64,000 bases of DNA, from positions 1 through 64,000 of the forward strand of contig CANQBZ010000004.1 in the NCBI GenBank assembly GCA_947589295.1, written 5' to 3'. Made by a program: the position numbers and the translations under genes. The notes below the pieces were generated by a model. It made no database searches. It was given only the letters and a program-made list of their open reading frames with translations, and was not told the DNA's origin. This stretch comes from an uncultured Akkermansia sp. (GTDB taxonomy: Bacteria; Verrucomicrobiota; Verrucomicrobiia; Verrucomicrobiales; Akkermansiaceae). Numbering within the stretch: the stretch's first letter is position 1; each line of letters starts with the position of its first letter. Of the stretch, positions 91 through 37,354 are shown piece after piece.

Positions 91-1529
91 TGTTGTCGCT
101 GTTGTTTGAGCCGTTCAATCTCCTCCTCGATTTTTCGGATCAAATCCGTGATCTTTTTTAAATTCTGCTGGGCCTGGCTGAGGTGTGGGTCAGACTGCAG
201 AGCATCACGGTAGGGTGCCAGTGTTGCCTTAAGTTCATCTACGATTTTTTGTAACGAGTCTGGGGAAACACGCGCTCCATTGTCTTGCGCATACAGTTCG
301 CGCAGCTTTGAAAAACCTTCACGAGCACGTTGATTTCCCAAGGCTAAATGCGCCGCAGACTGTAAACGAGGGTCCTCCGTCAAGAGAGCCGCTGAAAGCA
401 GCTCTTGAGCCTCTTCCCTCTTACCACCCCGTAAGGCATGCAGAGCTCGCGCGTACGCTTCCACTGGCGTTTCATCGGACTCAGCCTTGGATACCTGCCC
501 GATCAGCAGGAGTGCGAGTAGCATCGCCCCACGTCTTGGTGTGCGCCAGCTGCTGCCAAGCAATATACCAGCTATGAGCATGAGCAGCGCTGGCACTCCT
601 AACCACGCAAAGAGCTCCCGAGGCACCTTCCCAGAGTCATAGGTTTGCTCGTGTCGGGTGAGGCAGTCGGCCATTTTGTGAGCAAAAGCCGAGATATCCG
701 CGCCGGGTCCCATCATGAAAAAATCGCCTCCGGTAGCTTTTGCGAAGCGTTGTAGTGAGATAACATCAAGCTTGCTGATGACATGTTTTCCAGTCGCATC
801 CTGCCAGAGACCATCTTCGCTACGAGTGTCTGGAATAGGGGCGCCCGTGGGTGTGCCCACTCCCACCGTTACAACAAGCATGTTTTTTTTTCGTGCCTCA
901 TCGGCCACAGCAACAGGTGTGTCCACAGTGTCCTCCCCATCGCTCAAGATGACAAGTGCATTTGCGCTGTCCGGCGCACTGCGGGTGAAAGCCGAGGTAG
1001 CGCAGCGCAGCAGCTGGTCAAAGTTTGTGCCGCCGCTGCCTGCCCAGTCCCGGTTGACTTGCTCAAGCGCATCGCGAAGCGCGGTATGGTCATACGTGAG
1101 GGGCACAACGAGATCAGCCTCGCCGGAAAAAACGATCAGTCCAATTTTGTCCCCAGGCAAGGCTTCGATGAGTTCATAAGCGGCCGCGCGCGCCTCTTCC
1201 AAACGCGAGGGCGCCACATCTGCTGTCTCCATTGACCGTGAAATATCAAGCGCAATGATTAGATTGCGTCCGGAGGCCGACGCCCTGCCTGACTCGTACC
1301 CATTGATAGGGCGCCCAAGCGCCAAAATGACGCACACGAGCGCTGGCAGCACCAAAAACGGTGGCAGCAGGGATCGCCATGCGGAGGAACGAATAATGAG
1401 TTCAGGATGATCCGCCGACACCAAAATGCCCCAGCCTTTGCCAGCGAAGCGTCGACGCACCAATGCCGCTACTCCCAGGATTACTGGGACCAGGAGAAGC
1501 ATCAAGACCTTGGGATAGAGAAAACTCAT
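1..1529 (-). CDS. BatB-type von Willebrand factor A protein with C-terminal BatC-like TPR/Q-rich region (3' end truncated by window edge)
   Basis: Not in the ORF track (no stop inside window). Minus-strand translation from ATG at 1529 gives MSFLYPKVLMLLLVPVILG..., a vWA core (NLIIALDISRSMETADVAPSRLEEARAAAYELIEALPGDKIGLIVFSGEADLVVPLTYDHTAL) and a C-terminal ..DALQSDPHLSQAQQNLKKITDLIRKIEEEIERLKQQRQQQNQDQQQNQD.. tail. ATGA overlap with the upstream gene. Confidence 0.85.
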   Translation of the reverse strand, partial: MSFLYPKVLMLLLVPVILGVAALVRRRFAGKGWGILVSADHPELIIRSSAWRSLLPPFLVLPALVCVILALGRPINGYESGRASASGRNLIIALDISRSMETADVAPSRLEEARAAAYELIEALPGDKIGLIVFSGEADLVVPLTYDHTALRDALEQVNRDWAGSGGTNFDQLLRCATSAFTRSAPDSANALVILSDGEDTVDTPVAVADEARKKNMLVVTVGVGTPTGAPIPDTRSEDGLWQDATGKHVISKLDVISLQRFAKATGGDFFMMGPGADISAFAHKMADCLTRHEQTYDSGKVPRELFAWLGVPALLMLIAGILLGSSWRTPRRGAMLLALLLIGQVSKAESDETPVEAYARALHALRGGKREEAQELLSAALLTEDPRLQSAAHLALGNQRAREGFSKLRELYAQDNGARVSPDSLQKIVDELKATLAPYRDALQSDPHLSQAQQNLKKITDLIRKIEEEIERLKQQRQQQNQDQQQNQDQQQNQDQQQNQDQQQNQDQ

Positions 1530-3148
1530 GGTGCAAAACGAGGACGTAATTCCGAAAATGAAAAACCGAGGACCAGCAAGAGAAGCGCCCCCGCTAGCGG
1601 GTACATGAAGAGCGGTTCGTAGCTCACCAATTTGCGACGGGTGGCATCTGTCTTTTCCAGAGAATCAATGCTGCGGAAAGCTTCCTGCAACTGGGCGCCG
1701 CTTCCAGCTCGGTAAAATCGTCCGCCCGTGAGCGCTGCAATCTCGCGCAGCGTCTTTTCATCGAACGTATCAATATCCGCCGTGTAACGCGAGAGCCTCT
1801 CGTCCCTGCCAATCGCGATTGTAAAGATCTTAATGCCGAGTTTTGCTGCTTCTTTGGCGGCATCAACGGGGGAGAGAGAACCGCTGTTGTTCACACCATC
1901 CGTCACCAAAATGACGACCTTGGATTTGGTATCCACACGTTCGTGCAGGCGGGTGGCTGCGCCGGCGATGGCGGTGCCGATAGCTGTCCCATCGGGTTCC
2001 ACGTAGCCGGGGCGGTCCGGTTGACCGAATTGCCCGGCTTCGGGCAGGTAAAACTGCTCCATGATGTATCGCAGAATAGCGTGGTCGAGGGTGAGAGGAC
2101 TGCACAATTTGGCGCGCCCGGCGAAGGCGAGTAGTCCGATACGATCATTTGGTCGCTGTGCGATGAAGTTGGAAATAACATGTTTGGCAGCTGTAAGCCG
2201 GTCCACAGTAGTGCGAGCGGTGCGGCCGTGCTCATCGCGCACGGTAAAGGCCATGTCGCGTAGGCTCATAGAACCGGAGAGATCACAGGCAATCATAATG
2301 TCGATACCGCTCACCTTTTGCTCTTCGTGTTCCAGTTTCCAGCGCGGCTGGGCCAAAGCAAGAATGAGCGCCGCTGCCGCCAGAGTGTAACAAATGGGCC
2401 CCAGCCATCCAGCCAGCGTGCGCGGGGTGCGCAGTATCGGGCGTACAAAAAACAGCGTCGGCAGGAGGATGCCGGACTCCGTTCCCTCCCGGCGGCGCAG
2501 AAAAAGCAGTGGGATGATGAACAGAAGAATCCACAACCAGCCGGGGTTTCCCCACACGAGTTCGTGCGCACTGCTTGCCACAGCAAGCGGTATGAATGAA
2601 CGGAGCGGTGCTGTATCAGGCGCTGTCTGTTCTGCGTCACGGATACGGCAGAGGATATCGCGTGCGCGGTCAAGTAATTCGTTGGCAATGGCAGGATTAC
2701 TTGCATCGCTGGAGGCATATTTCAGCTCGGCGAGCTGCCCGAGCAGAGAGAGCAAGGGAAGGCGAAGGGACTCTGGTACGGAGGCTAGAGAATCAATGCG
2801 TCGGTTGAATTCTTCGTGTGTTTCATAGAGGGCCGGGTCGTGCAGTTCGCCCTGCAAAAAGATACGTAAAATCATGGAGAGCCGCAAACTGAAATCGCGC
2901 AGCAGAAGCGGGCAGTGGGCCTGAAGCGCATCCAACGATTTGAGAGCCTGCTGCACCGGGGAAACAGGGGAAAGCTCAGCCTGTGTGCGTCGCCGGTACA
3001 AGTAAAGGTATACACCGGCTCCAACCAAGATAACGCACAGTACAACAAGCAGCCACCACACCCAACCTGTCGAGGCAAACTGTTCCGCCGACAGTTCGGG
3101 GGCGAGCTCCGGGATCGCATCCGATAGGCTGGTGGGGATGGGAGGCAT
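1526..3148 (-). CDS. DUF4381-like N-terminal domain fused to BatA-type vWA membrane protein
   Basis: 540-aa ORF; N-term single TM plus DUF4381-like helical region, then aerotolerance BatA-like ELVWGNPGWLWILLFIIPLLFLRRREG...IDIMIACDLSGSMSLRDM. Confidence 0.85.
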   Translation of the reverse strand: MPPIPTSLSDAIPELAPELSAEQFASTGWVWWLLVVLCVILVGAGVYLYLYRRRTQAELSPVSPVQQALKSLDALQAHCPLLLRDFSLRLSMILRIFLQGELHDPALYETHEEFNRRIDSLASVPESLRLPLLSLLGQLAELKYASSDASNPAIANELLDRARDILCRIRDAEQTAPDTAPLRSFIPLAVASSAHELVWGNPGWLWILLFIIPLLFLRRREGTESGILLPTLFFVRPILRTPRTLAGWLGPICYTLAAAALILALAQPRWKLEHEEQKVSGIDIMIACDLSGSMSLRDMAFTVRDEHGRTARTTVDRLTAAKHVISNFIAQRPNDRIGLLAFAGRAKLCSPLTLDHAILRYIMEQFYLPEAGQFGQPDRPGYVEPDGTAIGTAIAGAATRLHERVDTKSKVVILVTDGVNNSGSLSPVDAAKEAAKLGIKIFTIAIGRDERLSRYTADIDTFDEKTLREIAALTGGRFYRAGSGAQLQEAFRSIDSLEKTDATRRKLVSYEPLFMYPLAGALLLLVLGFSFSELRPRFAP

Positions 3149-3151
3149 GAA

Positions 3152-4042
3152 TTAGCGTACGAAGATGCGGCTGCGGCGTTTGAAGAGAGCTCGCAGTTTG
3201 GGCATGAAGTCCTGGTTGGTGAGCAGTTGAAGGTTGTCAATGGCCAGCTGGGCAAAAAGCTGCTCCCACGCCTCAAAATGGGCATGTACGCGTTTAGCAT
3301 GCTCGGCGCGCATGGCTGAATCCGCCAAGTTGACCGCAAGTTGGACGCCAGTCTCCGCCTCCAGTGCATGCACGCGCCCTACGGCCGGCAGTTCCAGTTC
3401 AAGAGGATCGTTTACACGCAGCGGAATAAGCTCATGACGGTAGTTGAGCTTGCCAATAGCCTGCTTATCGGGAGCGAATAAGAAATCACTGATCATTATC
3501 AGCAGCGTTTTCTTGCGCTGGGTGCGTAGGAGCTCATCTACTGTGGAAAGTACGTCTTCATCCGTCCCGCCGGATGGTGAATTCAGAATGGAACTGAGCA
3601 CGCGCAAGTACTGCCGAGCACCCTTGGCTGGGGGTAGGTAAATATGCGGATTGCACCCGAAGACGAGCAGTCCCGTTTTATCGCCATTAAGCGCTGCGCT
3701 GTAGGCAAGTGTTGTAGCAATACGCGCGGCATATTCAAGCTTGGAATCTGGACTCAGGCCGCTGGCATAGCGCATCGAGGCGCTGGCATCAACCGCCAAC
3801 AGAAGTGCCTGCTCGCGTTCTTCGTGAAATTTGCGCACATAGGGAGTACCAGTGCGGGCAGTCACCTTCCAATCGATGAACCGGGGCTCATCGCCGGGAG
3901 TGTACTCGCGAAACTCGTCGAAATCGAGCCCCTGGCCGCGAAAGCCAGAGCGATACAGCCCTGCAAAGGTGGCCGTTACTAGGCGTCGCGCCTGCATTTC
4001 AATGCGGCGCACTCGCTGCATGATGTCCTGCGTTTTATCCAT
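3152..4042 (-). CDS. DUF58 domain protein
   Basis: FRGQGLDFDEFREYTPGDEPRFIDWKVTARTGTPYVRKFHEERE is the DUF58 signature; located between MoxR and BatA. Confidence 0.92.
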   Translation of the reverse strand: MDKTQDIMQRVRRIEMQARRLVTATFAGLYRSGFRGQGLDFDEFREYTPGDEPRFIDWKVTARTGTPYVRKFHEEREQALLLAVDASASMRYASGLSPDSKLEYAARIATTLAYSAALNGDKTGLLVFGCNPHIYLPPAKGARQYLRVLSSILNSPSGGTDEDVLSTVDELLRTQRKKTLLIMISDFLFAPDKQAIGKLNYRHELIPLRVNDPLELELPAVGRVHALEAETGVQLAVNLADSAMRAEHAKRVHAHFEAWEQLFAQLAIDNLQLLTNQDFMPKLRALFKRRSRIFVR

Positions 4043-4071
4043 GAGACTTCTTGCGAGTCGTCGTCATCTCT

Positions 4072-5061
4072 TTACGGTACGGGCACTTTGGAGAGAATGC
4101 GCTCGATGACGTCATCGGCCGTGACATTGGCCGCTTCGGCCTCGTAGGAGAGCAGGATGCGGTGGCGTAGAATGTCGTGCGCTAGGTCTTTCACATCCTG
4201 CGGGGTTACGTAGGCGCGTTGGTGGGTGAAAGCGAGTGCTTTCGAGGCCAAAGCGATATTGATAGTGGCTCGCGGAGAGGCTCCGGCACGCACCATGCCC
4301 GCCAGCGTGCGGTCCACCTTTTCTGGGGTACGCGTGGTTCTCACCAAATCCACGATATAATGCTGCACCGCCGGATCGATGAAAATTTGGTCCACTAGCT
4401 CCCGCGCAGCCTCAATATCTTGTGCATCCACCACTGGGTGCGTCATTGGAACCGGACCTGTGTGTCCCATCAGCGTGAGTACCTGCAGCTCTTCATCGTG
4501 GGTTGGATAGTCAACCACGACCTTAAAAAGAAAGCGGTCCAATTGCGCCTCGGGGAGCTGGTAGGTTCCCTCTTGCTCAATCGGATTTTGCGTAGCGAGT
4601 ACTAAGAAGGGGTTGGGCAGGGTGTGGGTCGTTTCACCCAAGGTGACCTGGCGTTCTTGCATGGCTTCCAGCAGCGCACTCTGTACCTTGGCGGGTGCAC
4701 GGTTAATTTCATCCGCCAAGATCAAATTGGCGAAAATGGGACCTTTTTTGGGAGAAAATTGACGAAGCTCGGGATTGTAGATCATCGTGCCTACCAAATC
4801 TGCCGGCAGTAAATCCGGAGTGAATTGGATTCGCGAAAACTCGGCGTGCATGGTGCCAGCCAAGGCTTTTACACATAGCGTTTTCGCAAGTCCGGGCACA
4901 CCCTCCAGTAGAACATGGCCCTTGCAGAGTAAACTCAGAATGAGTCGTGAAATAAGCCCTTGCTGGCCCACCACGACCTTGCTCATTTCTATTTTGACCG
5001 TGCTGATCCAGGCCGAGCGCTGCACAATTTGGTCGGTTAATTGCTTGGTGTCTGTTTCCAT
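4072..5061 (-). CDS. MoxR-family AAA+ ATPase
   Basis: HVLLEGVPGLAKT Walker A, LILADEINRAPAKVQSALLEAMQERQVT, LATQNPIEQEGTYQLPEAQLDRF. Confidence 0.95.
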   Translation of the reverse strand: METDTKQLTDQIVQRSAWISTVKIEMSKVVVGQQGLISRLILSLLCKGHVLLEGVPGLAKTLCVKALAGTMHAEFSRIQFTPDLLPADLVGTMIYNPELRQFSPKKGPIFANLILADEINRAPAKVQSALLEAMQERQVTLGETTHTLPNPFLVLATQNPIEQEGTYQLPEAQLDRFLFKVVVDYPTHDEELQVLTLMGHTGPVPMTHPVVDAQDIEAARELVDQIFIDPAVQHYIVDLVRTTRTPEKVDRTLAGMVRAGASPRATINIALASKALAFTHQRAYVTPQDVKDLAHDILRHRILLSYEAEAANVTADDVIERILSKVPVP

Positions 5062-13659: not shown

Positions 13660-14061
13660 TTAGTGAGCCTCTGCCGGAGCTTCCTCCGCCGGGTTCGTTG
13701 CACCTGCCGTTTCAACGGCCGGAGCCGTTGGCGCGTCCGATTGCTGGGGAGAATCCGCTGGTTGCTGGGTCATTGGGTGTTTGTCGTCCGTCAAATCCGT
13801 GGGATGGCTACGTTTGTATTGTGCGTTCATGAGCACGGCTAATACAAAGCAAAGTAACATGAATAGCGTGCCAAATAACACGGTACCCTTCTTGAGGACA
13901 TCGGTGGTTTGGGCACCGAAAGCCTGGTCGGTCATTTGAGCACCGAAAGCAGCTCCGAGCCCTTCTTGTTTTGGTCGCTGCATGAGCACGACGAGCAGCA
14001 AGAGTGCGCTCACGATAAGTAGCAGCACAAAGACGATGTAGATGGCTGATTGCAGAAACAT
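13660..14061 (-). CDS. secG: Preprotein translocase subunit SecG
   Basis: IYIVFVLLLIVSALLLLVVLMQRPKQEGLGAAFGAQ..FGAQTTDVLKKGTVLFGTLFMLLCFVLAVL. Confidence 0.9.
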   Translation of the reverse strand: MFLQSAIYIVFVLLLIVSALLLLVVLMQRPKQEGLGAAFGAQMTDQAFGAQTTDVLKKGTVLFGTLFMLLCFVLAVLMNAQYKRSHPTDLTDDKHPMTQQPADSPQQSDAPTAPAVETAGATNPAEEAPAEAH

Positions 14062-14112
14062 GGCGGACAAAATTGTAGAGGATGAAGATGTTCTTGTAAA
14101 GAGCAGAGGGTG

Positions 14113-14451
14113 TCAGGAAATAATTTCGTTAAGTTCGTTGCAGACGATGCGTTTTGGAATGATGGGCTTATCATCGAGTGCGAAACTCATGATGACGATA
14201 CGTTCACCTGCTTTGATGAGGTGAGCAGCACCGCCATTGACGATGATCTGCCCGGTGCGTGGAGGTCCAACTAGGACATATGTTTCGAATCGGTTTCCCG
14301 TCGTTACCGATGCCACAAGCACTTTCTCTCCAGGCCAGAGACCGGCGGCTTCCACCAGGTCCTGCGGAATCTCAATGCTGCCTTCATAGGCTACGTCCCC
14401 TCGTGTCACTTTGGCCCGGTGAATCTTCGACTTGAGCTGTGATACAAGCAT
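14113..14451 (-). CDS. panD: Aspartate 1-decarboxylase
   Basis: MLVSQLKSKIHRAKVTRGDVAYEGSIEIPQDLVEAAGLWPGEKVLVASVTTGNRFETYV, including the G-S self-cleavage site (YEGS). Start set at 14451. Confidence 0.93.
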   Translation of the reverse strand: MLVSQLKSKIHRAKVTRGDVAYEGSIEIPQDLVEAAGLWPGEKVLVASVTTGNRFETYVLVGPPRTGQIIVNGGAAHLIKAGERIVIMSFALDDKPIIPKRIVCNELNEIIS

Positions 14452-14510
14452 AGTCTTGCGAGTTGTCGGGCGCCTATGAAACAACTTTTTACCCAAAAGG
14501 TCAAGCAAAA

Positions 14511-15170
14511 TTACTTCGCAACGCCATGCACGCGGTGGCCAGCTCGAGGAATCATTGGAAACAACTGGGAGCAGATAGCGCATGGCGGGTCGCACCCTCG
14601 CGCTGAACAATAACGCCGTCCCCATAAAATGAATCTCAGGTGCAGTTTACCCCACATATCCGGCGAGTACAGGCGCTTCAGGTCAGCTTCCACATGCTGC
14701 ACGGTGTTGCCGCGGCTGAGTTTCCAGCGGCGCGCTAGACGAAAGATGTGCGTGTCTACCGGAAATGCGGGGAATCCGAAGGCCTGATTCATAACCACGC
14801 TGGCGGTCTTATGACCTACGCCCGGGAGGGCCTCCAGCTGTTCAAAAGATGAGGGTACCTGACCCGAGTAGCGCTCAGTGAGGATGCGGGCAGTCTGCAT
14901 AAGATGCAACGCTTTGGAGTCAGCCAATCCACACGTTGCAATCAACCGGCGCAGCTCCTGCAGTTCCATAGCAGCCATCGCTTGCGGGGTGCCTGCCTGC
15001 TTAAATAGAGCGGGGGTGACAGTATTCACCCGTGCGTCTGTGCAGCGGGCAGAAAGCATGACTGCCACGAGCAGGGTGAAAGCGTCACGGTGCCGCAGCG
15101 GCACCTGCGGGTCCGGAAAAGCACGTTCCAGCTCGGTTGCAACTAGCGTGGCTCGTTGCGCAAGGCGCAT
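14511..15170 (-). CDS. nth: Endonuclease III
   Basis: LLVAVMLSARCTDARVNTVTPALF, SSFEQLEALPGVGHKTASVVMNQAFGFPAFPVDTHIFRLARRW, C-terminal cysteines ARGCDPPCAICSQLFP. Confidence 0.92.
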   Translation of the reverse strand: MRLAQRATLVATELERAFPDPQVPLRHRDAFTLLVAVMLSARCTDARVNTVTPALFKQAGTPQAMAAMELQELRRLIATCGLADSKALHLMQTARILTERYSGQVPSSFEQLEALPGVGHKTASVVMNQAFGFPAFPVDTHIFRLARRWKLSRGNTVQHVEADLKRLYSPDMWGKLHLRFILWGRRYCSARGCDPPCAICSQLFPMIPRAGHRVHGVAK

Positions 15171-15190
15171 GGCGGTAGGATTGATTGCCT

Positions 15191-15406
15191 TTAGCGCCTT
15201 TCATTGCTCAGCGGACCAAGGATGGCGTCCCCTTCTTGCCGCGTCGTTCGGTTCCATGACTTCATGATCTCCGTGCTGCCTTTCGGCGGGACCACGGTTC
15301 GACCAGAGGACGGCACCGGAGGCACCGCGCGCTGACAGTCAGAAAGCCCCAGCATCAGCCCGATGACGCCGAGGCACATGCCTACAGCTTTAACTCGTGT
15401 GATCAT
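15191..15406 (-). CDS. Small hydrophobic-N-terminus (putative lipo)protein
   Basis: 71 aa, VGMCLGVIGLMLGLSDCQRAVPPVPSS signal peptide with lipobox-like cysteine. Confidence 0.5.
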   Translation of the reverse strand: MITRVKAVGMCLGVIGLMLGLSDCQRAVPPVPSSGRTVVPPKGSTEIMKSWNRTTRQEGDAILGPLSNERR

Positions 15407-15426
15407 AGCATGCGTATCAAATGGAA

Positions 15427-16290
15427 TCAGGACCCCAGTGGAACTTTGCGCAGCACGAGGTCTCCCACTTCCAGCATGACTCCTCGTGGAAGCTTTTCTT
15501 CATCGTATTCCGCCACTACTTGGCCCGCACTCACACTCACGATATGCAGGGTAGCGATGGCAACCCCATTGCGCTGCACCAAGAGCTGCGTCTTGTCACC
15601 CGGGTAGAAACCGCTGTCTTCTCCAGCGTTGAAAACAACGAAATGCCACTGCGGGTTGACTGCGGCGATGGTGTATTGGGTGCCGTTGTTGCGGTAAGGC
15701 TCCAAGAACCGGTTGTTCTGCTCTTTCTTCGTGTTATAATCCACCGTGGCGTCGCTTACCTCCTTATTGAGCTCTTTGCGTTGGCCGGTAAGCTTCTGGC
15801 TTTGCTCTTTGAGTTTGGCAATGGACTCTGCATCCTCCGTCACAATGCTGTGCAGCGTATCAACTGCAGTTTCCATGTCCGTATCCTCCATCCCGGGTAT
15901 GCCGTGCAGCTGGGCAAGCAGCTCATCTTTTTTCTTTGCCAACTCTTCCTGATGTTGGGACGCTTCCTCAATTTTTGCTTGAACGCGCTCCATGTCCGCT
16001 TTATGGGTCTCAGCAACGCGATGTGCATCCTCCATCTTCTCCGCTGCGTTGACGGCTTCAGCCTGGCGAGACGCATTTGCCTTGAGCGTATCACTGCGTG
16101 TTTTGGCAACTGTCGCAGCCTCGGTTACAAGGTTCTTATTGATAAGCTCCATACCGGCAGGCTCTTCTGAAAACCCGGCGCGAGCCCCTACCAGGACGCG
16201 CATAGTAGTTTCTTGGCTGGACGCGTAGTAGTAGCCGAGAAACGCCAGTACTACCACGAGGCTGAGCAGGATGTAGGTAACGATTTTCAT
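15427..16290 (-). CDS. TM-anchored coiled-coil protein with C-terminal beta domain (paralog 1)
   Basis: MKIVTYILLSLVVVLAFLGYYYASS TM, long coiled coil, C-terminal NPQWHFVVFNAGEDSGFYPGDKTQLLVQRNGVAIATLHIVSVSAGQVVAEYD. Start set at 16290. Confidence 0.75.
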   Translation of the reverse strand: MKIVTYILLSLVVVLAFLGYYYASSQETTMRVLVGARAGFSEEPAGMELINKNLVTEAATVAKTRSDTLKANASRQAEAVNAAEKMEDAHRVAETHKADMERVQAKIEEASQHQEELAKKKDELLAQLHGIPGMEDTDMETAVDTLHSIVTEDAESIAKLKEQSQKLTGQRKELNKEVSDATVDYNTKKEQNNRFLEPYRNNGTQYTIAAVNPQWHFVVFNAGEDSGFYPGDKTQLLVQRNGVAIATLHIVSVSAGQVVAEYDEEKLPRGVMLEVGDLVLRKVPLGS

Positions 16291-16312
16291 GATTGAAAGA
16301 GTTTTTCTTTGC

Positions 16313-17203
16313 TTAATCTTTCTGGACTGGCCGGGAGGAAATGACGCGGTCACCAGACTTGACGGCTTCACCGGCAAGCAGGGTGTCCATGATAATGTCA
16401 CAGCTCGAACGGTTGTTCTCCACCAGAGTTACGTTCATCTCGCAAATCTTGCGCTCCCCGCGCATGACGGCAAGACGAGAGCCAATGATGACCCCCGCAT
16501 CCGCCCCAGCATTCACGATCACGTACTCCCACGCAGGATCTGCCAGAATGACGTTGCAGTCGAGTGTCTCAGGGGAGAGGCGTGCTTGACGCTCACGCGC
16601 GAGATCGTCCTCTTTCTTAATGGAAGCGTACAAACTGTCTTTGCTGCTTTGCAAAGTTTGGATGAATGCTTCGTCCTTGGCGATTTCACCCGAGATTTCA
16701 TCGCGCTTGGCTTTCAAGAGGTTGACATTGGAAGCAAGGTTGGTAAGCACATCGGCGTCCGAACTATCCATTTCTGCCACTTGGACATCCCCGCTCTCCT
16801 GTAAATCAGAGAGGATTTTCTGAAGCACTTCGTCATTTACCAGCGCATTGAGTAGGCTTTCTCTTTTCTCATTGAATTCTTCCAGCTCTCCTCCCATGCT
16901 TTTCAACTCGGCTTCAAGTCGCTGAATCTCGGTCGTGTAGGTGAGGTCTTCTTCCCGGAATTTGGCCTCTTGCTCCTCAGATTCAGCTTTGCTTTTCACA
17001 AGCCACTCTCCACGCATACGCGCGTAGGCTGCTATGGCTTCATCAATGAAAATTTCCTTGTTCTTGGCAATGGCGTTTTCGTACTGCGTCTGCAAGGCTG
17101 CTACCTCACCATTGGCGGACACAAGCGCTTGGTGAGTCTTGTAGAAAACAAAGGTACCCGCAGCGATCAGCACAAGAGAGACTGTGACAATGTATTTCCA
17201 CAT
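16313..17203 (-). CDS. TM-anchored coiled-coil protein with C-terminal beta domain (paralog 2)
   Basis: MWKYIVTVSLVLIAAGTFVFYKTHQ TM, coiled coil, C-terminal DPAWEYVIVNAGADAGVIIGSRLAVMRGERKICEMNVTLVENNRSSCDII. Start set at 17203. Confidence 0.75.
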   Translation of the reverse strand: MWKYIVTVSLVLIAAGTFVFYKTHQALVSANGEVAALQTQYENAIAKNKEIFIDEAIAAYARMRGEWLVKSKAESEEQEAKFREEDLTYTTEIQRLEAELKSMGGELEEFNEKRESLLNALVNDEVLQKILSDLQESGDVQVAEMDSSDADVLTNLASNVNLLKAKRDEISGEIAKDEAFIQTLQSSKDSLYASIKKEDDLARERQARLSPETLDCNVILADPAWEYVIVNAGADAGVIIGSRLAVMRGERKICEMNVTLVENNRSSCDIIMDTLLAGEAVKSGDRVISSRPVQKD

Positions 17204-30350: not shown

Positions 30351-30380
30351 TTGACTCTTGAGTCATCTTGTGGTTGAATA
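30351..30380 (+). promoter_or_regulatory. Putative promoter (TTGACT...TGAATA) with overlapping TGACTC-TT-GAGTCA dyad
   Basis: -35 30351-30356, -10 about 30375-30380; perfect 6-bp dyad at 30352-30365. Confidence 0.5.
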
Positions 30381-30404
30381 GGGCTGGGAAATCCCTTTAC
30401 ACCC

Positions 30405-30578
30405 ATGAAAGCAGTCACTCTCATTTCTATTCTTTTCGGCTCCGTAGCGCTTTCCTCGTGCTGCTGCCAGTCGCAGCCCGCGCCTCCGCTTCGTCCTATG
30501 CCGAGGAATCTGGTGAACGACATGCCTCAGCCCCCCTATGTGGAGCCGGTAAAGGTGTTCACGCAAAAGGGCAAGTAA
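30405..30578 (+). CDS. Small putative lipoprotein (57 aa)
   Basis: Below the ORF-track cut-off: MKAVTLISILFGSVALSSCCCQSQPAPPLRPMPRNLVNDMPQPPYVEPVKVFTQKGK; signal peptide with lipobox ALSSC, own promoter and terminator. Confidence 0.75.
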   Translation: MKAVTLISILFGSVALSSCCCQSQPAPPLRPMPRNLVNDMPQPPYVEPVKVFTQKGK

Positions 30579-30644
30579 ACGCCTCCGCCCGTCCCGCCGG
30601 GGCTGCGCTCTGTCGGCTTCTGCTGTGCCGTTTTTCTTTTTCGG

Positions 30645-30675
30645 AACCGTTGCGATTTGCAACGGTTTCTTTTTA
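30645..30675 (+). terminator. Rho-independent terminator
   Basis: aaccgttgc-gattt-gcaacggtt followed by tcttttt. Confidence 0.85.
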
Positions 30676-30703
30676 AAAAATTAAAAAAAGCTACAAATCT
30701 TTC

Positions 30704-30732
30704 TTGCAATCCAGCCCATTTTGGAGTAAAAG
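30704..30732 (+). promoter_or_regulatory. Promoter of the exbB operon (TTGCAA-N17-TAAAAG)
   Basis: Near-consensus boxes with 17-nt spacer, 38 bp before ATG 30771. Confidence 0.6.
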
Positions 30733-30770
30733 GTATTTCGTCAATTCCGCACAGAATAAGTTTCACTACC

Positions 30771-31586
30771 ATGAAAACGATTATCACACGCATTGGTCTC
30801 CGTGCCTTTTCCCTCGGGATGGCTGCTTTGTTCATGATGCCCGCTGCTTTCGCTCAGGAGGCGGAGGGGGCAGCTGTTGCTCAAAAATCCATGTTGGATA
30901 AATGGGTGATTGATGGAGGTTGGACAATGATCCCGCTTGTGGTGCTGCTTGCAGCTACGATTTTCCTGCTTGTTTTCTGCATGATGGCGCTCACAAAGGA
31001 AAAATTCTGCCCGGAGGAGTTGCGTTCGCAGATGCTTGCCCTCATGTCCGAGTGTCGTGTTCAGTCCGCCATTCAGCTTTCTACTACCAGTCCCACTTTC
31101 TTGGGCAGACTTGTTGCGTATGCTCTCCCCAACATAGACGCGAACCGCCCGGAGGATTTGGGCAAGGATGCCATCGAAGATGCGATCGCTGATTTTACGG
31201 CCAACGAGCGTCCTCAAACGATGAAGTACGTGGATATGCTCGCGTTAATTGGTTCGCTGGCGCCCTCAATCGGCCTCTTTGGTACGGTGCAAGGCATGGT
31301 GGGAGCGTTCGCCATTCTGGCTGAGTCTGGCCAGGCCGACCCCACTCAGCTGGCAAGCTCCATTTCCGTGGCTCTGCTCACCACTTTCTGGGGACTGATC
31401 GTTTCCATCATTGCTATCCCCGCGTTCTTCTTCCTCAAGAAACATGCTCAGGCGCTCGAAGCCGACTGTGTTAATACCATTGAGGAGATGGTGAACACCT
31501 CCATCAATGTGATCAACGCTGAGGCTCAGCTCGCCCGCATTCCGGAAGGACTTGACACAGGCGATGAGGAGCCTGCCGAGGCTTGA
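30771..31586 (+). CDS. MotA/TolQ/ExbB proton channel family protein with signal-peptide-like extension
   Basis: LDKWVIDGGWTMIPLVVLLAATIFLLVF, MLALIGSLAPSIGLFGTVQGMVGAFAIL, ISVALLTTFWGLIVSIIAIPAFFFL. Start set at 30771. Confidence 0.93.
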   Translation: MKTIITRIGLRAFSLGMAALFMMPAAFAQEAEGAAVAQKSMLDKWVIDGGWTMIPLVVLLAATIFLLVFCMMALTKEKFCPEELRSQMLALMSECRVQSAIQLSTTSPTFLGRLVAYALPNIDANRPEDLGKDAIEDAIADFTANERPQTMKYVDMLALIGSLAPSIGLFGTVQGMVGAFAILAESGQADPTQLASSISVALLTTFWGLIVSIIAIPAFFFLKKHAQALEADCVNTIEEMVNTSINVINAEAQLARIPEGLDTGDEEPAEA

Positions 31587-31696
31587 TGCACGGTTCTGAT
31601 TGCCGCCGGAGCTATGTCGGCTTGGTCCCTTGCTGACATCCCCTCCGCGGCACGGTGCACCCCGCGCTTTCCCTTCGTAACTTTTCAGAAGATACT

Positions 31697-32218
31697 ATGG
31701 CAAAAAAGAACTCCAGACCGAACGATGATGTAAACGGCAATGTGAATCTTTCGCCCATGATTGATTGCTGTTTCTTGTTGCTGATTTTCTTTGTGGTGAA
31801 TGCCACGCAGATCACCGTGGCTAAGGACCCGAGCGTGAAGATGCCTAGTGCGGTCTCCTGCTCGGATCTGAAGGATGCCAACGGCTGCATTGTTGTCAAT
31901 GTCTTTTCGGACACGGACAAAATGGCGCCTAAGGCTCTTGAGAAGTACAGTAAAGATTATCCTCCGGGCTCTCTGTGGGGAGTCGCGGATGCCAATGGCA
32001 GATCAATTGGCTACAACACAGGTCAGGTGCAGGAACTCACCGACTTCATCAAAAAGCAAAAGGAAACTTTCAAGGGCAAGGGACTGGAGGATGGTAAGAT
32101 TCGTTTGTACCTGCGCGGGGATATGGCTGCGCCGTGGGAACGTTCATCGACCGCCATCCGCTGTGCGGCGGCTGCGGGCGTAACTAACATCGTTTTCGGT
32201 ACATTGCCTTCCAAATAA
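31697..32218 (+). CDS. ExbD/TolR family protein (1)
   Basis: VNLSPMIDCCFLLLIFFVVNATQITVAKDPSVKMPSA. Start set at 31697. Confidence 0.88.
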   Translation: MAKKNSRPNDDVNGNVNLSPMIDCCFLLLIFFVVNATQITVAKDPSVKMPSAVSCSDLKDANGCIVVNVFSDTDKMAPKALEKYSKDYPPGSLWGVADANGRSIGYNTGQVQELTDFIKKQKETFKGKGLEDGKIRLYLRGDMAAPWERSSTAIRCAAAAGVTNIVFGTLPSK

Positions 32219-32233
32219 CCTCTCTTAAAGACC

Positions 32234-32734
32234 ATGGCAAGACATAAACAGATTCAGACAGAGCAGCAGGAAGACCCGGAGATGAACATTTCCTCGATGA
32301 TTGACTGTTGCTTCCTGCTGCTTATCTATTTCTTAGTAGCGACCTCGCTGGTGAGCGAGAAGAAGCTCGATATTTCCATTCCGGCTTCTGCGCAGTCAGC
32401 ATCTTCTCAGAAGCCTCCCGTGGATCCGGGACGAATCGTGCTGCAGGCGGATGGCAGTGCGACGTGGAACGGTGACATGACGGTGGCTGATCCGTATAAT
32501 CCAGAAGCTGAGCCTGGTACTAGCGAGTACCGCAGTCAGCGCGAGTTGGAGCAACTTGTTGAGCAACTCAAAAACTACAAGGATCTCGCCTCTTCCGTGC
32601 AAGCCGAGCCCGTGGTGATGCTCACAGGAGCCCCTTCTGCCCCTCACCAGCGTATCGTGGATATCATGGCAGCTTTGGCGGAAGCGGGTATCAAATCAGT
32701 CGGTATCAGCACGGCAGACACAGGATCCGATTAA
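32234..32734 (+). CDS. ExbD/TolR family protein (2)
   Basis: MNISSMIDCCFLLLIYFLVATSLVSEKKLDISIPAS; C-term APSAPHQRIVDIMAALAEAGIKSVGIST. Confidence 0.92.
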   Translation: MARHKQIQTEQQEDPEMNISSMIDCCFLLLIYFLVATSLVSEKKLDISIPASAQSASSQKPPVDPGRIVLQADGSATWNGDMTVADPYNPEAEPGTSEYRSQRELEQLVEQLKNYKDLASSVQAEPVVMLTGAPSAPHQRIVDIMAALAEAGIKSVGISTADTGSD

Positions 32735-32846
32735 TGGATTAACCCTCGGATTCGCGCATGACAAAGGAGAAGTTGAATCTTGAATGTGTAGTGCTGCTTC
32801 CTCGCTTCTTTCCAGTTTTTTCATCACAAACACGACCCCATCTCTT

Positions 32847-35800
32847 ATGAAAATCATTACCTCATTTTCCGCTATTCTGACACTCGCGCTTCTTGCAGCT
32901 CCTCTCACCAGTTGGGCTCAGGATCCTGCGGCGGAGTTCAAAGTGGTGCAGCAGTTGCGCGCGGAGAAAAAGCCGGCTGACGCTTTGAAGCATATTGAGA
33001 AGGTCCTGGCTTTCGTTGCTAATCCAAACTCGCGCGTTGGTTCGCAGTTTGCGTACTTCGCGCCTTTTTTCCTGTGGCAGAAAGGCGGTGTGTTGTGCGA
33101 CATGGGCGACTATGATAAGGCGTGCGAAGTGTACAAGGACATCAACACGAATCCTGCTTACAAGGACCGCTCCCTGATAAAGAGCTCAAAAGTGCTTCCA
33201 GGATGGGATGATGAGGGGTACGCGCCCTTGCTCACGATGGCTCTTTTCCAGCAGGGGCTCACGCGCTACCAGCAAGCGACCGGCTCCAATGGCAAACCCG
33301 GCAACCCTGAGGCGTACGAACAGTGCATACCTCTCTTGGAAGACTACCTGGAGCTCTACGAAACCAACAAGGTCTCTCGCCGCGAAAAGAAAATGAAATT
33401 GGACGGCCAGGTGTGCGTGTTACTCCTACAATCATACCTGCTTAAGAAGTCGCCGGATTTCGCCAAAGCAGCACCTTTCATGGAGCGCATGGGCAAGGCG
33501 AAAGCAGCTTTGCCGGACGATTTGGTGATGAACGCCTTGGGTACTGTCATGCGCATTGCTACCGAGAATCCGCAGTACATTGAATGGGGCTCCAAGATGA
33601 TTGATTCTAACCCCGGCAGTTTCCATGTGGCACCTCACCGCATTGCTCCGTTTATCGGCAACCTCTACAACTTTGGGGTTCGTGCCGTGCAACTTGCGGA
33701 GGAGGGACTCAAGGCTGGCAATATGGACCAGGCACTTGCTGCTATGCGCACCGCCAATACGATTTTTGGCATTATGCCCGATACCGTGGAGGCTCGTGAT
33801 TCTCTCATGGGCGTGGTCAAGCTCGTGGGGGGCTCATCGCGTCCGCTCGTCGATAAAGCTATGGGTATATCCTACTCTGCCGACCGCAGCAAGTCTTATG
33901 CAGAGAGCCTCACTCAAATTATCGATGACAACACTCAGCTTGAGGCCTACACTGGTCTGAGTCTTGCCAACTCGGCCATGCGCATGGGCTCAAGTCGTCT
34001 CGCTAAGGCCGGTATCAAGCTAATCATTGAGCGTTACCCCCACCTGCGCCAGAAAGATAAAGAGCTGCGCGATGTCAACTATTTGCAGTACTCTCAGCTT
34101 TGCCGCGCCACAGGGGACGATGAAACTGCGCTTAAGTACGAGGAAAAGATCAACCCTGAAAATGTCGGCAAAGGCAACAAGAATGTGGTGGCTATCAACA
34201 AAATGATTCGTCTCACCAAAGAAAAACAATGGGACCGCGTGATCCCCGTTGCCAATGAGGTGCTTGCCGGCTTATCCAAAGACGCAGATGCACTGAATTA
34301 CGTGAGCGCCTGTTTCACCAAAATTGCCGCCAACTACTACTTGAAGCGCATGGAGGAAGTGGTGCGGGAAGGCACAGAGTTGTTTAACTCCGGTCTCCTT
34401 ACCGCCAAAGCCGATGGACTCACGCCGGAGCAAGTGCGCAATTATGAACCGCAGGCCATGTACTTTGTCATGGATGCCTACAAGGAACTCGGCGCCAAAG
34501 ATCCGAAAAATTACGACAAGGCCATTGCCATTGCCGACTCTTTCACTCAGAAATATCCCTCCATTAACCTAGAGGACAATGCCATGGCTCCCAATGTGTA
34601 CTTTGATGCCATAACTGTGCTGTTGAAGCGTCGTGGACATGGAAAAGAAGCTGAGGATAAGGCTGATCTCAAAAAGGCCCTTGTCTTTTGTGATGTGATC
34701 GCGAAAAATTGGAAAGATCACGAACTCTATCCCTCATCCCGCTTGCTTGCCGGCAGCATCCTCATCAACGGCGAGGATGATGCCGTAAAACCCCAGGGTA
34801 TCGAAGTGCTTGAGCAGTGTGTTGAGGCGGCTCTTAAATTGCCGGAGGGCAAGGGCAGGGCAGTGGCCTCTAATGCCCTCTTCTGGCTTGCTTCCTACGC
34901 TCCGGAATATCCACGTGAGGGAGAGGATGAAGCGGCTTTCGCTGCGCGTGTAAAGGGCTACTTTGATACTTTCTGGAACCAGGTGGATGCCGAAGGGGAC
35001 GACTATGCGTTGCAGATGGCCTCGTTGCAGCTCTCGCGCTCTTTGGCCACCAAGGACCCTGCTGCATATGAATCCGCGTTGGCTAATGCGCAGAAGGTCA
35101 TCGCTCGCGAGGCGGCTTACTACTTCAAGAACGATATACACAACCCTGAGCTTGAGCTTACCATTAATTCGTATGTTGAATCTTACGTCAATGGTGAAAA
35201 GGATATTCACAATAAAGTGCTCACCCTTGAAGAAAAGACAGAGCATCTTACCAACTTCCCGGGTATTGATCCGCAGGATAAGTACACGAACGCCATCTTG
35301 CGCATGGCCTTGCTCAATTCGATGAATGAAGCCATGGTGTCTGCCAAACGAGCTGGTAAGACGGAGGAAGCGACTAATCTGGAGCGTGATATTGCCCGAT
35401 CATTCCGCCAGATGCGCGACGCTTTCAAGCCGGATGATCTCACCAACTTCATCTGTGTGCAGGTAGGTAACTTCGAGATTAATTACGCGCGCCGCTTCCG
35501 TCCCGGCAGTCCGGAACGCAAGCAGGAAGTTGAGGTGGCTCTCACGTATTTTTCCAAGGTTTTAGAGCGTGCTAAGGATTACCAAAACGAGGCCAACCTT
35601 GGCAAGGCTCAGGCACTCTCTCTTTCAGATGATCCGGCGGCCCAGCAGCAGGCTCTCACTCTCTTCTCTAAGCTCGCATCTGCTCAGGATCCAGCTGTAG
35701 TTGGCCCAGCGCTTATCGGCTTGACCGATCTGAATATGAATACTGGAAACTACAAAGGCGCCGTGGAGAGTGCAGGCAAGTTCATGAATGTGCGCGGGGG

Positions 35801-36221
35801 CGGTACTCCTCGCGAACGCTTGGAAATGATGCTCAAGCTTGCCGAGGCTTTCTGTGCATCGGGCGAGGTTCAGAAAGGTATTCAGACCTATGTCAACCTC
35901 TACAGTCAGAATCGCGGTAATATTTCCTTCTCTGCGCCTGCGGTGAAGGGCATCATGACCCAGCTCTGGAAACGCAATACGCCCGCTAGCGGAGATCGCC
36001 TGCAGAATACCTTTAAGCAGTCCGATCACTGGCGTGCATGGAACACAGGCCGCGACTACGTAAATCAAATCCGGCGCGCTGGCATCGACAAAAAGATGTC
36101 GCCGTCCGAGCGCGATTTATTCAACGAAGTTGTGCTGCTTGTAGAGGAGTACGCCAAGGATGGGGCGGTCCAGCGCGAGGAAAAGGAGAAAAACGATTTC
36201 CAGTCTAAGCTTGGCAAGTAA
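32847..36221 (+). CDS. Large secreted TPR-repeat protein
   Basis: Signal peptide MKIITSFSAILTLALLAAPLTSWAQDP; repeated helical pairs (DYDKACEVYKDINTNPAYKDRS, ALTYFSKVLERAKDYQNEANLGKAQAL, ..). Start set at 32847. Confidence 0.8.
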   Translation: MKIITSFSAILTLALLAAPLTSWAQDPAAEFKVVQQLRAEKKPADALKHIEKVLAFVANPNSRVGSQFAYFAPFFLWQKGGVLCDMGDYDKACEVYKDINTNPAYKDRSLIKSSKVLPGWDDEGYAPLLTMALFQQGLTRYQQATGSNGKPGNPEAYEQCIPLLEDYLELYETNKVSRREKKMKLDGQVCVLLLQSYLLKKSPDFAKAAPFMERMGKAKAALPDDLVMNALGTVMRIATENPQYIEWGSKMIDSNPGSFHVAPHRIAPFIGNLYNFGVRAVQLAEEGLKAGNMDQALAAMRTANTIFGIMPDTVEARDSLMGVVKLVGGSSRPLVDKAMGISYSADRSKSYAESLTQIIDDNTQLEAYTGLSLANSAMRMGSSRLAKAGIKLIIERYPHLRQKDKELRDVNYLQYSQLCRATGDDETALKYEEKINPENVGKGNKNVVAINKMIRLTKEKQWDRVIPVANEVLAGLSKDADALNYVSACFTKIAANYYLKRMEEVVREGTELFNSGLLTAKADGLTPEQVRNYEPQAMYFVMDAYKELGAKDPKNYDKAIAIADSFTQKYPSINLEDNAMAPNVYFDAITVLLKRRGHGKEAEDKADLKKALVFCDVIAKNWKDHELYPSSRLLAGSILINGEDDAVKPQGIEVLEQCVEAALKLPEGKGRAVASNALFWLASYAPEYPREGEDEAAFAARVKGYFDTFWNQVDAEGDDYALQMASLQLSRSLATKDPAAYESALANAQKVIAREAAYYFKNDIHNPELELTINSYVESYVNGEKDIHNKVLTLEEKTEHLTNFPGIDPQDKYTNAILRMALLNSMNEAMVSAKRAGKTEEATNLERDIARSFRQMRDAFKPDDLTNFICVQVGNFEINYARRFRPGSPERKQEVEVALTYFSKVLERAKDYQNEANLGKAQALSLSDDPAAQQQALTLFSKLASAQDPAVVGPALIGLTDLNMNTGNYKGAVESAGKFMNVRGGGTPRERLEMMLKLAEAFCASGEVQKGIQTYVNLYSQNRGNISFSAPAVKGIMTQLWKRNTPASGDRLQNTFKQSDHWRAWNTGRDYVNQIRRAGIDKKMSPSERDLFNEVVLLVEEYAKDGAVQREEKEKNDFQSKLGK

Positions 36222-36260
36222 TCACCCCATAGGAACCAATAAATTACAGACCCTATCGAC

Positions 36261-37292
36261 ATGAAAACAATTCACGTTCTCGTTCTGTTTACCGGGTTGT
36301 TTACAACGCTGCCTCGGTCGGTGGCGCAAGAACAGCAGGCCCCGGCTCCAACCATGCTTGTTGCCCAAGTTCAAGCATCCAAGGGTAAGACACATCGCAT
36401 GCAGATACTGGCACCTCCTTCGGTGACCAAAGGAGCTTTTCTCCGTCTCGTGTCGCGCGATGAACCCCCCGTGCTTGACCAAGCGAAAAATTACAAGCTT
36501 TTCTTCATTGAAACACCGGCTGATTTGGCTGGTGCGCTGCACTCCTATTCCAATGATGAGTTTAGCTCTGCCAAACGGCAGCTTGCCCGTGTCCGCGCTA
36601 CCTACTCCGCGTTTGCTGGTCTCCCCGGTAACCCCGCTACCATGGCTGCACTCATGGAACTCAGCTGCAATGCTCGAGCCATGGATTGGGATGGCTTGGG
36701 CAAGGCGGCCGCTGATTTCCCTTCTCCTAAATTCTTGGAGGCTCCAGAACGTGCCAAGGTGGAAGCGGCTGCCATCCTCAGCAAGGTTAGCGATGACCCC
36801 GCCACTGCGGATGACCGCCAAAAGGAAGCGGAGCAGGCTATTGCCTCTGCCACTAAAGCGCCTGACACTACCTCGGAAGTGTACGCGTGGTTGAAGTATG
36901 CGCTTGGTCGCGCTCTGGCTAGCAAAGTACCTGTGGCAGAGCTTCAAAAAGGCATCAGCGCTGAGCATGAGAAAATCGCGAGTTCGGCGGTGGACGCGTA
37001 CTGTGAGGCTGTGGCGTCGGCCCATGGACGTTTTATGGAAATCCCAGTTGATGCCATGCACCGCGCGTTTCGGATTCTTTGGGCAATGCCAGGGGTAAAA
37101 AGTTATGCGTCCAAGGCGAAGAAAATGGATAAAAAGGTATGGGAAACGGCTCCTTACAATTTCCGCGATGCTGTGGCTCTAGCCTACTTATTGCGCAATG
37201 TATATGCTCCTGCTCTCAAGGATGAAGCGCTGAGTAGCGCATGCTCGCTGTATTTCAACGAGCAACTAAGTCCGAAAAAGACGGGTAAGTAA
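36261..37292 (+). CDS. Secreted hypothetical protein of the Exb/TPR operon
   Basis: Signal peptide MKTIHVLVLFTGLFTTLPRSVAQEQQ; alpha-helical; 39 bp after the TPR gene, terminator downstream. Confidence 0.7.
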   Translation: MKTIHVLVLFTGLFTTLPRSVAQEQQAPAPTMLVAQVQASKGKTHRMQILAPPSVTKGAFLRLVSRDEPPVLDQAKNYKLFFIETPADLAGALHSYSNDEFSSAKRQLARVRATYSAFAGLPGNPATMAALMELSCNARAMDWDGLGKAAADFPSPKFLEAPERAKVEAAAILSKVSDDPATADDRQKEAEQAIASATKAPDTTSEVYAWLKYALGRALASKVPVAELQKGISAEHEKIASSAVDAYCEAVASAHGRFMEIPVDAMHRAFRILWAMPGVKSYASKAKKMDKKVWETAPYNFRDAVALAYLLRNVYAPALKDEALSSACSLYFNEQLSPKKTGK

Positions 37293-37314
37293 CCTGTTGA
37301 CTTCCTAGTTTTGG

Positions 37315-37354
37315 GCAGGTGAGGAATTCGAACGCGATCTTCACCTGCTTTTTT
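37315..37354 (+). terminator. Rho-independent terminator ending the Exb/TPR operon
   Basis: gcaggtga ... tcacctgc followed by tttttt. Confidence 0.75.

Follow-up and report, generated by a model that had tools for sequence, protein, structure and literature searches.

The window, that is, the whole stretch of 64,000 nucleotides from an uncultured Akkermansia species analysed here, harbors an operon of five genes on the plus strand. It consists of a gene for an ExbB-like channel (30771..31586; 271 aa, Pfam MotA_ExbB with E = 1.7e-25), two genes for ExbD-like subunits, namely exbD1 (31697..32218; 173 aa, Pfam ExbD with E = 1.4e-11) and exbD2 (32234..32734; 166 aa, Pfam ExbD with E = 8.7e-23), a gene for a giant secreted TPR protein (32847..36221; 1124 aa, with Pfam TPR_14 and TPR_6 over the cut-off and with syntenic homologues), and a gene for a further secreted protein of 343 aa (36261..37292). 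A preliminary description of this DNA had named the same five genes, and their positions, common strand and Pfam and NCBIfam matches bear this out. It had also described the ExbDs as two different subunits and the ExbB as carrying a signal-peptide-like extension. Both points agree with the alignments: exbD1 and exbD2 constitute separate orthologous sets, and the N-terminus of ExbB (...AAFAQE), which reads like a signal peptide as do those of the TPR protein (...TSWAQD) and the 343-aa protein (...RSVAQE), is kept in the relatives. No obvious outer-membrane component is found among the five proteins.

The boundaries of the unit require a correction. The preliminary description treated positions 30351-37354 as a single promoter-to-terminator unit. 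Its 3' end holds, as an intrinsic terminator follows the last gene on the plus strand (approximately 37313..37350; a hairpin of -27.8 kcal/mol with z = -5.25, then T6). The start does not hold: the first 320 bp or so are taken up by a gene encoding a predicted lipoprotein of 57 aa (30405..30578, plus strand; MKAVTLISILFGSVALSSCCCQSQ..., with an SSCCCQSQ motif) that is closed by its own terminator (30643..30669, plus strand; a stem of 12 pairs followed by TTTTT). Because this terminator belongs to a separate gene, the unit starts after about 30670 and not at 30351. The lipoprotein gene lies outside the conserved five-gene unit, and its presence ahead of exbB is shared by close Akkermansia relatives alone. 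Sigma-70-like sites are not commoner in the region than in shuffled sequence (5 versus 4.5). One near-consensus site (GTGACA-17-TATAAT, 11 of 12 matches) falls within exbD2 (32472-32500), ahead of the TPR gene, and may be due to chance. The neighbors examined with Pfam comprise a GNAT acetyltransferase, truA, and proteins without a Pfam match; a Pfam search of the operon and the tested neighbors finds no tonB or receptor gene within the operon.

The identity of the operon is indicated by its last gene. The 343-aa protein matches the NCBIfam model NF052542 (E = 2.2e-87, 293 bits against a cut-off of 75), whose entry reads 'mucin_mul1B_fam, Mul1B family putative transporter subunit'. From this match we assign the locus to MUL1 (mucin utilisation locus 1) and, by position, the TPR protein to Mul1A; judged by sequence, the operon is the MUL1 of an Akkermansia species with the order exbB-exbD1-exbD2-mul1A-mul1B. 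The preliminary description was in part right about the type of machine and did not recognise this known Akkermansia locus. With the MUL1 of A. muciniphila the operon shares a Mul1B family protein over the cut-off and a giant secreted TPR protein, and the order of the five genes is identical in G119 (locus L042), a single-contig member of the genus that we take to be the A. muciniphila type strain. A 206-aa ORF between mul1A and exbD2 in the latter genome has no Pfam match and is taken as spurious. The two loci differ in that the proteins described here are diverged, with 23% identity of the TPR protein to the G119 copy, and in that the window genome represents another Akkermansia species with a smaller genome, for which the role in mucin utilization is a prediction. 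We note that few mucin-uptake systems of Akkermansia, a medically relevant symbiont of the gut, have genetic support, and that MUL1 is one of them. According to papers that cite the original work, the locus was first described in A. muciniphila (Davey et al. 2023). Later articles report a mul-dependent build-up of mucin products in internal compartments of this species (PMC12418764; PMC13174399) and mark several CAZymes as Mul1A-associated (PMC11790493).

The preliminary description had put forward conserved linkage in relatives as a check, and such linkage is strongly evident. In a search with NF052542, members of the Mul1B family exceed the cut-off in 161 of the 195 genomes of the window's family, and the family is represented in 15 of 16 genera at E <= 0.001. 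The genes exbB-exbD1-exbD2-tpr-mul1B are found on one strand in 17 of 20 loci sampled across the genera of the family, with L050, L052, and L059 having been defined as loci by their mul1B hit; the other three loci (L048, L057, and L058) contain only a tpr-mul1B pair of the MUL1 type. The cassette is complete in all 20 further loci of the genus, with mul1B as the defining hit in L179. Outside the family, the full set occurs in 9 of the 12 loci sampled in the rest of the order (two of the three misses are cut by contig ends), and the five-gene order extends to two further families of the order. Named carriers are a Luteolibacter MAG (L066, within the family) and an uncultured Verrucomicrobiales MAG (L065). 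Comparison of the loci all against all identifies the five genes as the whole conserved unit, with no other gene common to most loci. The linkage is beyond chance, since dozens of genomes have the same order amid flanks that are otherwise different. Two loci contain additional genes of the same types: in L053 a second large TPR protein (953 aa, 652-3513) is encoded downstream of mul1B and clusters with the Mul1A proteins, and in L154 (1551-10235) another mul1B and a TPR fragment of 210 aa come after the full cassette, which suggests a duplication.

This distribution bears on a recent claim about the aquatic relatives of Akkermansia. A statement of 2026 (PMC13174399) holds that aquatic Akkermansiaceae lack MUL1 synteny; the same article lists Luteolibacter as a freshwater-dominant genus. 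The Luteolibacter locus and the wide spread within the family do not fit this absence, where the aquatic habitat of the carriers is judged from their names alone; an order-preserving conservation that reaches far beyond mucin-eating gut species contradicts the statement. The low identity of the proteins, about 20% for the TPR protein, may be the cause of the operon having been missed earlier. That Luteolibacter and other Verrucomicrobiales carry the complete motor operon speaks for an older motor, probably devoted to glycan capture, having been put to new use in mucin feeding.

The putative motor subunits retain characteristic residues. The transmembrane aspartate D23 is invariant in 28 of 28 aligned ExbD1 and ExbD2 sequences, and T172, T204, and T205 are invariant in every ExbB aligned. 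By motif position the latter correspond to T158, T185, and T186 of PomA, the three threonines conserved in Na+-driven stators (PMC10374538). A sodium drive is nevertheless not claimed: the threonine motif fits, but the Thr-Thr pair is also present in other ExbBs of the same genome, and nqrB, looked for in connection with Na+ drive, was not found. The channel residues do not discriminate between H+ and Na+, and the proton motive force named as the drive in the preliminary description is a candidate. Where TolQ has the stretch AEALIAT, the MUL1 ExbB has SVALLTT.

Structure prediction yields an all-helical, continuous superhelix for Mul1A, reaching from about residue 27 to the C-terminus (mean pLDDT 78.8, with a weak stretch at approximately 312-381), and for Mul1B a small beta domain (residues 32-83) followed by helices (mean pLDDT 77.4); both models are built on shallow alignments (6 and 5 rows, respectively). 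A fold search with the Mul1A model returns Ctr9, Ski3, and IFT-A subunits. As these matches are generic helical-repeat scaffolds with low TM-scores, the modeled Mul1A appears to have no specific structural relative in this search. The search with the Mul1B model gives no PDB match under E = 1e-3.

Taken as a functional unit, MUL1 is, in our view, rather likely to represent a motor with a heterodimeric ExbD that acts on a Mul1A/Mul1B scaffold and serves the periplasmic capture of large glycans, as opposed to classical TonB uptake. ExbB would assemble as a pentamer into an inner-membrane channel that encloses an ExbD1/ExbD2 pair, corresponding to an ion-driven motor of the 5:2 type. The movement of this motor would be passed on within the periplasm to Mul1A, envisaged as a soluble superhelix some 1100 residues long, together with Mul1B as its partner. 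Mul1A might also provide a dock for periplasmic glycoside hydrolases, such that the assembly helps to pull large glycans into the periplasm or to keep them there during digestion, the glycan being mucin in the case of Akkermansia. We infer the ExbD1/ExbD2 heterodimer, the direct path of force from ExbD to Mul1A, and a general glycan role of MUL1 outside Akkermansia. The proposed outcome, selfish uptake of large glycans, resembles that of the SusCD systems of Bacteroidota. MUL1 differs from these in that Pfam detects no SusD domain in Mul1A or Mul1B and in that the single plug-domain receptor of the genome is unlinked to the locus. The preliminary description likewise favored an envelope machine with a periplasmic TPR scaffold over classical TonB uptake; this is the best reading, and a Ton-type alternative is retained at lower weight.

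The latter alternative arises from the genome as a whole. The absence of TonB stated in the preliminary description applies to the operon but not to the genome, where TonB_C matches occur outside the operon, on the contigs C77 and C41 only. On C77 (L157) the gene for the one plug-domain receptor of the genome shares an operon with tonB and a gene for an SBP5 binding protein, without exbBD; C41 encodes a second, TonB/TolA-like protein together with its own exbB and exbD. A third exbB-exbD pair on C7 (L159, 5075-10662) is followed by genes for an 838-aa TPR protein and a transglycosylase. Ton systems with two ExbDs exist, for example the tonB-exbB-exbD1-exbD2 system of Xanthomonas campestris, and MUL1 has an ExbB and two ExbDs with a transmembrane aspartate in common with Ton systems, but it contains a giant TPR protein and Mul1B in place of tonB and a receptor. 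The MUL1 motor could hence be one piece of a dispersed Ton system, in which ExbB, ExbD1, and ExbD2 energise the unlinked tonB of the single receptor and Mul1A and Mul1B act as accessory factors. We regard this as unlikely, even though the counterpart of the receptor/SBP5/tonB operon in G171 and G175 is also located on a contig without exbBD, and even though in L065 a TonB-dependent receptor gene and an SBP5-like gene (the latter recognised by eye) directly follow mul1B (13943-16783), the same pair as in the C77 operon. It is the lack of exbBD in the tonB operon of the genus and this one arrangement that leave room for a Ton-type role. A TonB-dependent receptor as a conserved neighbor of MUL1 was considered and rejected, as it is seen in L065 only among the genomes checked: the 22 genomes contain 0-9 such receptors each, all located away from MUL1 except in L065. 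Moreover, MUL1 is kept in G153, an Akkermansia genome of 97% completeness, with no detectable receptor plug or TonB_C domain, and in G007 and G073 with no detectable TonB, all three being drafts in which such an absence is not proof. The window genome also offers two other exbBD pairs, one of them beside the TonB/TolA-like protein. A classical Ton use of the MUL1 motor is accordingly less likely than action on the Mul1A/Mul1B scaffold. A motor for envelope maintenance or of the gliding type, similar to Tol-Pal or AglRQS and affecting mucin utilization indirectly via outer-membrane integrity or surface dynamics, is still less probable. TolQ is the best-scoring named channel family, yet far below its cut-off (62 versus 221 bits), and the sequence profile of Mul1A also matches the TPRs of CpoB and BamD. 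The combination of one TolQ-like with two TolR-like subunits recalls the gliding motor AglRQS of Myxococcus, a likeness drawn by description and not by sequence. The conserved block, however, is restricted to its five genes: it includes no TolA, TolB, Pal, or Glt-type partner and no gliding genes. In addition, mucin phenotypes are reported for mul genes, and Akkermansia is described as non-motile (PMC12418764).

A further comparison concerns the motor-TPR-vWA cassettes of PVC bacteria, for which a membrane-tethered vWA protein is the published candidate force transducer (PMC12204202). Like MUL1, these cassettes combine a TolQ-like and two distinct TolR-like genes with a gene for a large TPR protein, and several of them also have a Mul1B-like gene. 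MUL1 differs in that the motor genes come first, followed by the TPR gene and mul1B, in that it has no vWA transducer, and in that its ExbBs form a separate clade. Relatives across the phylum show the order tpr-(mul1B-like)-exbB-exbD-exbD, often followed by vWA. A gene for a vWA transducer tethered to the inner membrane is part of the cassette in L070, L085, L187, and others, and is not found in the MUL1 operon described here. L070 combines the two arrangements: its genes are arranged as in MUL1 except that exbD2 and tpr are separated by a vWA gene, whose product has a His-containing transmembrane segment. In an unrooted maximum-likelihood tree of ExbB, in which not all deep forks are settled, all MUL1 sequences fall into one clade (support 96/97) with L070 as its sister (94/94) and the rearranged cassettes outside. 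The simplest reading would be that the vWA gene was lost on the MUL1 branch. We tentatively suggest, at less than even confidence, that MUL1 is an old machine of the Verrucomicrobiales and not a mucin-specific invention of the gut: a branch of the motor-TPR-vWA systems minus the tethered transducer, in which the two ExbDs would drive the TPR superhelix directly and large polysaccharides would be captured without TonB. Given such a derivation, the motor might still need a vWA or other tethered transducer that is encoded elsewhere and acts in trans. The tethered vWA gene in the sister cassette L070 and in the rearranged phylum-wide relatives speaks for this possibility, which we nonetheless hold to be very improbable: vWA matches in the window genome are confined to a BatA-type and DUF58 group beside a MoxR-type AAA gene (window positions 1526-5061, minus strand), and none adjoins a motor gene. 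MUL1 thereby links two separate literatures, on mucin-utilisation genes and on orphan force transducers of the vWA type in the PVC group, and makes it testable whether an ExbB/ExbD motor can operate with none of the transducers TonB, TolA, and vWA. Both types of gene order occur side by side in L048 (3534-16001), where a MUL1-type tpr-mul1B pair without motor genes is adjacent to, and divergent from, a cassette of the rearranged order tpr-mul1B-exbB-exbD-exbD that is complete and has a weak vWA match.
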